Shown: positions 30,040-32,889 of the stretch, in pieces
How the letters are laid out: each line of letters starts with the position of its first letter
How positions within the stretch are numbered: position 1 is the first letter of the stretch
NCBI RefSeq assembly: GCF_000299415.1
Contig: NZ_AMPG01000002.1
Coordinates: 620,001-684,000, forward strand
Direction of reading: 5' to 3'
Length of the DNA stretch: 64,000 nt
DNA from: Candidatus Microthrix parvicella Bio17-1
GTDB lineage: Bacteria; Actinomycetota; Acidimicrobiia; Acidimicrobiales; Microtrichaceae
The notes under the pieces: model-generated
Database searches by the model: none
What the model was told of the DNA's origin: nothing
Seen by the model: the letters and a program-made list of their open reading frames with translations, nothing else
Made by a program: the position numbers and the translations under genes

Positions 30040-32889
30040 CTACCGGTGGTTCGGGCCCACCAGGACGGCCAGCACCCGGATGAGCGGGTCGCCCTGGGTG
30101 CGCATCGACTCGATCAGCTGGGCAGTGTCCGAGCGCACCGCAGCGATCACCTTCTGGCGATCCCGGCGCCGGTGCTCCACCAGGTCCATCGCCAGCGCTT
30201 CGGACTGCATCTGCCACGCATCCAACCGCACCTGGGGCTCGGCCAGCCGCTCGGTCAGCTGCGCCTCGTACGCGTCACGTCGCACCTCGAGCTCGCCGCG
30301 CACCTGCTCGATGACGTCACCCAGCTGGTCTTGGAGCACCTCGACGTCGATGGGTGTGCCGGGGTTGGCCATGTCGGCGTCGACGTTGGCCCGCTGGAGC
30401 ACCTCGAACAGGTCGGCGATCACCGGCGTGCCGAGATGCTCGGTGACGGCCATCCACTCGACCAGTTGGGGATGCCCGCGGCCGTTGGAGTACATGCCTT
30501 GCACGCAGAACACCGGGGCATCCACGTCGGCGACGATGATCGGCGCCTCGTTGCGGCCCACGGTGGCCAACACCTTGTCGACCAACCAGTCGCCAAAGGG
30601 GTGCAGCGGTGCGAGGAAGCCCACGTCGGGCCAGCCCGAATCGGTGGTCTCCCGGGCCTTGTCCAGCTGGGCGTTGGCCAGGGTCTCGTTGCCGGTGAGC
30701 TTCAGCCGCTCGGCCACCCGCTGCTCGACCAGGTAGGTGCGGGGCAGGGCCTTCATGCGGCCGATCAGGTCCTTGGGCGGCACCAGCGACAGGAACGTGT
30801 CGTCGCCCGGGTCGCGGCGCACGTCCATGGTGGTGTCGGCATCGTCGAAGGCCTGATGCAGCGCCTCGTCAACGAACGCCCCATCGCTCTCGAACAGGCT
30901 GGGCGGCCGGTGGACGGGCACCGCCTGGGTGCCGGTGGCGCCCGACAGCACCGCCATCAGGTCGAAGGCCGCCGTCGGCTTGGCCGGGATGGCCTCGTCC
31001 GGGTCGGTGCCGGCACGCAGGCCGGCCATCACCGCCTCCTCCTCCAGCGCCTCGGTGTGCACGCCGAGCAACGACGACGAATCGCCGAACGCCCGATGGG
31101 CCTCGTGCTCACGCTGGAGCAGCTTGGTGAAGATGCGCACGTCGCCGTTGAGGTGGGGATGGTCGGGGTTGAGCAGCAAGGCCCGCACGTCGGGGGCGTG
31201 ACGCTGGCCGTAGCGGTCGATGCGGCCGTTGCGCTACTCGATGGTGATGAGCGACCAGGGCAGGTCGAAGTGGATCAGGTGGTGGCATTGGCGGTGCAGG
31301 TTGACGCCCTCGGAGGCCATGTCGCCGGTGAGCAGCAACTTCACGCCCGACTCGGCCAGGCCGAACTCGGAAATCACGTCCATCTGGCGCACGTCGGCCA
31401 TGCCACCGTGCAACACCCGGACGTCGGAGTCCTTCAGCTTGAGGGCCTTGGGCACGGTGGCGGCCAGCCAGTCGAGCGTGGCGATGCGCTCGGAGAACAC
31501 CACCACCCGGGTGTTGCTGCGGGGGTCCACGCCGATCTCCCGCAGCTGCTCGATCAGCGCCGTCAGCTTGGAGGCGCTGGTGTCGTCGATGGCGGCGTTC
31601 AGCTCGCCCAGACGTTGGAGTGCTGCGTCCTCGGTGGCGATGGCGGCCGTGTTGGTGCCCTCGTCGGGGGTGTCCCGCTTGGCGAGGGTGTTGCGGCGGG
31701 CGACGATCGTCTCCCCCAGCGCGCGGTGCGACGACAGCGCCGCCTTGAAGAGCGTCCACGGGAACAGGGTGCGGCCCTTGCCCGACGTCGGCGCCGTGCC
31801 CGACGCTGGGTGGATCCAGGTGTTGGCCAGCTCGGCAAACATGGCATTCTCGGCGTCGGAGGCCTCGATGAGCAGCGGCTGGGGCTGAAGCCGGTCGGCC
31901 CAGTCGGCGCGCACCTCGGCGGCCACCTCATCGTGGGCCTTATGGCGGCGCACGTACAGGTGGTCGATGTCGGCCGCATCGATGTTGGTCGGGTCGGCGA
32001 TGGCGGTGGGGTCGAGCAGGCGGATCAGCTCAGCGAAGCTCTCGGGGTCACCGTTGTGCGGGGTGGCGCTGGTGAGCAGCAGCGCCTCGGTGCGGGGCGC
32101 CAACACCCGGGCGAGCTGGTTGTTGAGCGTGCCCCGGTTGACCAGGTTGTGGCACTCGTCGATGACCACCGCATCCCAATGAATGCCTTCGAGGTGGTGG
32201 CGGTAGCGGCCGGCGTTCTTCAGCGTGTCGATCGAGATGATCGCCCGGCGGTAGTGGCTGAACGGGTTGCGGTTGGCGGGGATCTCGCGGCGCACCTTGG
32301 CGATGCCGTCGGAGTCGAGCCGCACCAGCGGGATGGCGAAGCGGGTCCACAGCTCGTGCTGGAACTGCTCGAGGATGTGGCGGGGCGTGACCACCAGGAT
32401 CCGGTCGCCCCGGCCCCGGCGGATCAGCTCGGCGAGGATCAGACCCACCTCCAGCGTCTTGCCCAGGCCCACCGCATCGGCGATCAGCAGACGGGGGCGC
32501 AACCCGGCGATCGCCTTGTGGGCGGCCCGGCGCTGGTAGTCGAGACGCTTCAGCAGGTGACGGTCGGCCAGGGCCAGGCCGGTCTGGTTGGCCGGCACCG
32601 GGGTCTTGCGCAGCACCGCCTCCAGGTACAGGCGCGAGGCCCGGAACCGCGGGGAGAGGTCTGCGGTCAGCCGGGTCTCCTCCGGGCGGAGGGGCGCGAC
32701 GTTGTCCAGCTTGGTGAGGAACGTGGCCTCGGCGTCACGCACCAGCGTCGATGTGCCGACGCAGCGCACCTTCACGCCATCGGCCGACGTGGGCTCGATC
32801 GCCCGCACCAGCCACTCCTCGTCACGGACGACCACCTGGGCACCGGGGGCGATCAACGACAACAGCTTGTCCGGGGTGGCGACTGGCAT
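30040..32889 (-). pseudogene. SNF2-family helicase (DrmD-like) interrupted by an amber codon
   Basis: Read through, this is a 949-codon SNF2-type helicase starting at the ATG at 32889. Walker A ADAVGLGKTLEVGLILAELI lies near residue 140, motif II WDAVVIDECHNLVNRG near 255 and motif III LTSATPHNGDPESFAE near 290. The C-lobe has VVFSERIATLDWLAA and LLTGDMASEGVNLHRQCHHL. The N-terminal frame ends [13 protein letters not shown] (31234-31236, codon 552) and continues in the same frame [20 protein letters not shown]. The family motif at this place is E-Q-R-x-GRIDR-x-GQ, so CAG has become TAG. The remaining 382 residues hold the C-terminal helical region. DISARM class 1 begins with such a gene (drmD) followed by the methylase. 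Confidence 0.88.

Follow-up and report, generated by a model that had tools for sequence, protein, structure and literature searches.

Does an amber codon within an otherwise intact helicase gene mark a defence system that has only just been lost, an error in the assembled sequence, or a codon that the cell can still read? This question is raised by Candidatus Microthrix parvicella Bio17-1 (NCBI RefSeq assembly GCF_000299415.1), where the analysed window, a stretch of 64,000 nucleotides (contig NZ_AMPG01000002.1, forward-strand positions 620,001 to 684,000), carries on its minus strand a gene for a BrxHII/RapA-like SF2 helicase (30040-32889) that is interrupted at codon 552. Positions without a contig prefix are those of the window.

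Identity of the system

An earlier note on this DNA had called the interrupted gene DrmD-like, a name that has to be abandoned. The protein reaches 306.1 bits against the curated NCBIfam DrmD model, the cut-off of which is 610, and on this score and the make-up of the operon membership in DISARM is rejected; the best PADLOC matches of the protein likewise lie at sub-family level. By sequence comparison the gene is instead armA of an ARMADA Type II system, an identification that follows from the neighbouring genes, the gene order and the counterparts in Escherichia coli. Three further genes, also on the minus strand and all open, belong to the set, namely armB (20574-25421) for a PglX-like DNA methyltransferase with NPPW at residues 972-975, armC (10053-16400) for a YprA/DruE-like helicase of 2115 amino acids with an MrfA Zn-binding domain, and armD (7888-10182) for a GajB-like UvrD helicase, the true start of which is probably near 10056 and thus overlaps the armC stop. 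The four genes match four consecutive genes of the E. coli plasmid pYLPD7b (L198), and the identities to the E. coli proteins are 36% for ArmA (over 963 aligned columns), 36% for ArmB, 31% for ArmC and 36% for ArmD. The alignment of ArmC covers its residues 1-1858 of 2115, and that of ArmD begins at residue 7 of the E. coli protein; for the Vsr-type nuclease expected at the C-terminus of an ARMADA Type II ArmC and the RelE-like domain expected at the N-terminus of ArmD, the Pfam search gave neither a nuclease match in ArmC nor a RelE-type domain match in ArmD.

ARMADA Type II has been described with the strict order armA-armB-armC-armD (Bell et al. 2025, PMC12458937), and the window holds the same four kinds of gene in the same order, with the BrxHII/RapA-like helicase followed by the PglX-like methyltransferase, the YprA-like helicase in third and the GajB-like UvrD helicase in fourth place. 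It departs from the described system in the TAG that interrupts armA and in the spacing, as armA and armB are 4.6 kb and armB and armC 4.2 kb apart. E. coli SMS-3-5 has these four genes in that order too, next to Zorya II and to two genes that occupy the Druantia III position; this is the arrangement of the Zorya II-Druantia III-ARMADA island described in PMC12458937. ArmA and ArmB are remote relatives of DrmD and DrmMI of class 1 DISARM (DrmD, DrmMI, DrmA, DrmB, DrmC), whereas the YprA-like protein of the window is DruE-like, unsplit and equipped with its own MZB domain, and is followed by a GajB-like helicase; no match to drmB or drmC was found among the proteins scanned. With Druantia Type III (DruH-DruE) the system shares an ArmC whose best match is to DruE models, at 307 bits, but the operon has the ArmA/ArmB pair and ArmD in addition, and DruH had no match among the proteins scanned. 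Between armB and armC lie two genes for proteins without Pfam match (16801-18564 and 19459-20577; 587 and 372 amino acids). On a Tsukamurella tyrosinosolvens plasmid (L199), an ARMADA-like operon adjoins another helicase/DUF1998 cluster, with UvrD helicase genes on both sides.

The amber codon in motif VI

The armA frame extends over 950 codons (32889-30040) to its own terminal TAG, and the TAG at codon 552 (31236-31234) is the sole earlier stop, with neither a second stop nor a frameshift in the about 397-398 codons 3' of it. The product contains an SNF2-rel_dom and a Helicase_C domain (residues 446-561), with the RecA1 motifs GLGKT at 141 and DECH at 244. Codon 552 falls near the end of Helicase_C, and alignment with RapA, the nearest solved relative, places it within the QRxGRxDRxGQ stretch of motif VI. 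Glutamine occupies this site in all 79 sequences of the full-length protein alignment and in 86 of 86 aligned homologous segments from several orders of Actinomycetota, where it is encoded by CAG throughout. The earlier note's description of the lesion, a lone CAG to TAG change at the family's glutamine in motif VI with both flanks well preserved in one frame, is thus fully confirmed. The stretch around the stop is present in a single copy in the genome, and armA is the only one of 24 Helicase_C matches in this genome with an internal stop; together with the invariant glutamine and its CAG codon, this indicates that a real coding frame surrounds the stop.

About 44 codons of armA (32 CAG, CAA or CGA and 12 TGG) are one transition away from a stop, so that a stop landing in motif VI is unsurprising; if single-base changes of any kind are counted, 194 of them would create a stop in this gene.

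Age of the lesion

The C-terminal part of ArmA evolves faster than the N-terminal part across the whole family. The ratio of mean distances after and before the stop position is 2.21 for the window gene and 2.16, 2.21 and 2.18 for three intact relatives, so that relaxed evolution of the downstream part was not found by this measure, and GC3 is nearly unchanged across the stop, at 0.94 upstream and 0.93 downstream of it. With the downstream part not relaxed and the codon bias kept, the change is either very young or absent from the cells. At 66% identity, the nearest intact relative is too distant for a finer dating, and a scan of viral contigs found neither a relative nor a sister strain. The very recent inactivation that had been proposed for this gene is hence supported in its recency, and the read error named with it as the alternative stays alongside; selection against a costly system, which the note also offered, is a conjecture.

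Is the stop real, and is it read as a stop?

A reading in which enough glutamine is inserted at the TAG to yield small but useful amounts of full-length ArmA, with the codon serving to restrain a costly system, is in our view very improbable. Bacteria are known to decode UAG with near-cognate tRNA-Gln, a misreading that may occur here at a low level and would restore the native residue, and the part of armA after the stop is still under constraint; however, a stop is found at this site in no aligned homologue, and searches of the genome for dedicated machinery gave nothing above cut-off. A search of the genome for suppressor tRNAs, as the earlier note had suggested, was negative: none of about 48 tRNA genes has a CTA anticodon (49 tRNA-like places in a covariance search, combined with ARAGORN, in a genome estimated as 95% complete), the one tRNA-like place that ARAGORN did not call (L145) is by eye a fragment with a CAT anticodon, and when the genome was searched by pattern for anticodon arms with CUA, the hits were limited to a tRNA-Arg(TCT), the copied 3' part of that gene and an unrelated site. 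Matches to the pyrrolysine synthetase PylS in the genome are far below the cut-off, and the RNA after the armA stop folds no better than shuffled sequences (z = -0.41). TAG moreover ends 88 of 406 well-supported genes and is thus an ordinary, non-depleted stop. On the tRNA survey, the PylS search, the stop usage and the RNA fold, we reject stop-codon reassignment and amber suppression. The copied 3' part of tRNA-Arg(TCT) lies about 12 kb from the gene (C1:507547-507571 and C1:519483-519556), an arrangement like that at the ends of an integrated element. A related idea treats the amber codon as an off-switch, leaky through readthrough by Gln-tRNA or reversible through frequent reversion, that would hold a costly ARMADA helicase at a very low dose in a lineage in which partial duplications also reshuffle armB; it appears to us just as remote. 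The least credible proposal is that the gene is split by design into residues 1-551 and a second chain. An internal GTG (31188), 45 bases after the stop, does open a frame of 382 codons, but a single frame covers more than 90% of armA in 79 of 82 homologous loci, and the cut would fall inside the RecA2 domain at motif VI.

A more serious competitor is that the TAG is a consensus error or a strain variant chosen by the assembler, with the gene intact and the TAG absent from most cells; we regard this as unlikely, though far less so than any form of decoding. The perfect state of armA on both sides of the stop, with a downstream part as conserved as in intact relatives, is what such an error would leave behind, and the genome comes in 13 contigs at 95% estimated completeness, so that it may derive from a metagenome assembly. 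A second lone in-frame TAG also has the look of scattered errors. It lies in the otherwise intact, conserved gene of an ABC-transporter ATPase of the sugar/nucleoside type (C2:877823, within C2:877821-877825; L147, L200), between the signature motif and Walker B, at a position occupied by Glu in two relatives from the family; the downstream gene for the permease is open. On the other hand, the armA site lies outside any homopolymer, and the two genes account for all internal stops, both TAG, among 155 matches to three large families in the genome. A codon-usage scan with a GC3-based training set, covering stretches of the genome that total 864 kb, gave few candidates, and beyond armA and the ABC ATPase, the two clear intragenic stops, those listed resemble by eye ordinary gene ends behind which another gene starts in that frame; at its threshold of 8 units the scan would have missed the armA stop itself (downstream score 5.7), and it may have missed weaker cases too. 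The domain matches and the few scan candidates indicate that the assembly is not error-rich and speak against generally error-ridden sequence. A few lone nonsense errors per genome are nevertheless indistinguishable from a few real ones on assembled sequence.

On balance, we favour a natural nonsense mutation of recent date, which would abolish ArmA function and, if the E. coli system is a guide, that of the system as a whole; we would give this reading a probability of roughly 0.64. A single transition in the motif VI glutamine codon would have created a very recent nonsense allele of armA in a chromosomal ARMADA Type II operon. Lone breaks of this sort are uncommon but occur elsewhere, in the ABC ATPase of this genome and in armA or armB of related loci. 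Translation would then end at residue 551, leaving a product that keeps RecA1 and most of RecA2 but lacks the Gln and Arg residues of motif VI and the C-terminal part of about 397-398 codons, and for such a product no productive ATP hydrolysis is expected. In E. coli all four ARMADA II genes are needed for protection, and deletion of armA as well as changes in Walker A or B of ArmA abolish it (PMC12458937). If the same dependence holds in the window system, the loss of the ATPase activity of ArmA would entail the loss of defence, and the system should be off while armB, with its methyltransferase, armC and armD remain open.

Rearranged surroundings of armB

In relatives with enough flanking sequence (84 loci or locus pieces), armB follows directly after armA, and armC lies further downstream. 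The window differs from them by the 4.6 kb between armA and armB (25422-30039), in which a small gene encoding about 93 amino acids occurs five times, twice intact and three times decayed. All copies lie on the plus strand: an intact copy for a coiled-coil/membrane protein of 93 amino acids, divergent from armB (25678-25956), a second copy with 76% identity (26963-27253), a decayed copy with a stop (27508-27732), a truncated one (29009-29152) and a partial one that adjoins the end of armA (29794-29982). Between them, on the minus strand, are a duplicate of armB codons 1-130 with 91% identity (26413-26802) and a fragment of armB codons 363-398 (28900-29008), and a duplicate of the 3' part of armB, codons about 1418-1591, is located downstream of armB on the same strand (18848-19345). 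The partial armB copies and the small-gene copies show that segments around armB have been duplicated in part more than once. The small gene occurs a sixth time 316 kb away at C2:961431, with what appear to be the first codons of armB. The rearranged region between armA and armB is consistent with a system in turnover, the operon of which is under disturbance.

Breaks in related loci

The interruption of armA is not the only one in the family. Of the 82 related loci examined, two have a broken armA, L093 through a frameshift and L061 through a stop, and five (L020, L038, L082, L090 and L061) have an armB frame interrupted by a frameshift or a stop. One or other of the two genes is thus broken in about 6 of the 82 (about 7%), some of these in isolate genomes. 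In L093 the frameshift splits armA in a run of C near 13950 (G088), with armB and armC otherwise open; an armA remnant was also seen in G055 (L097). The breaks among these loci suggest that single genes of the system are lost recurrently, and the armB breaks in actinobacterial genomes could be due to sequencing error, to phase variation or to loss. Loss of defence genes is common, and for that reason the nonsense change in armA is in itself ordinary.

The defence system described here is of a type already known, and its armA carries either a single-base lesion of recent origin or an error of the consensus. Its name is corrected from DISARM to ARMADA II, and it provides a candidate for a natural armA-null state in which armB, armC and armD are still open. 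Broken natural copies, with armA or armB affected in about 7% of the related loci, offer a way to learn which genes of such systems go first.
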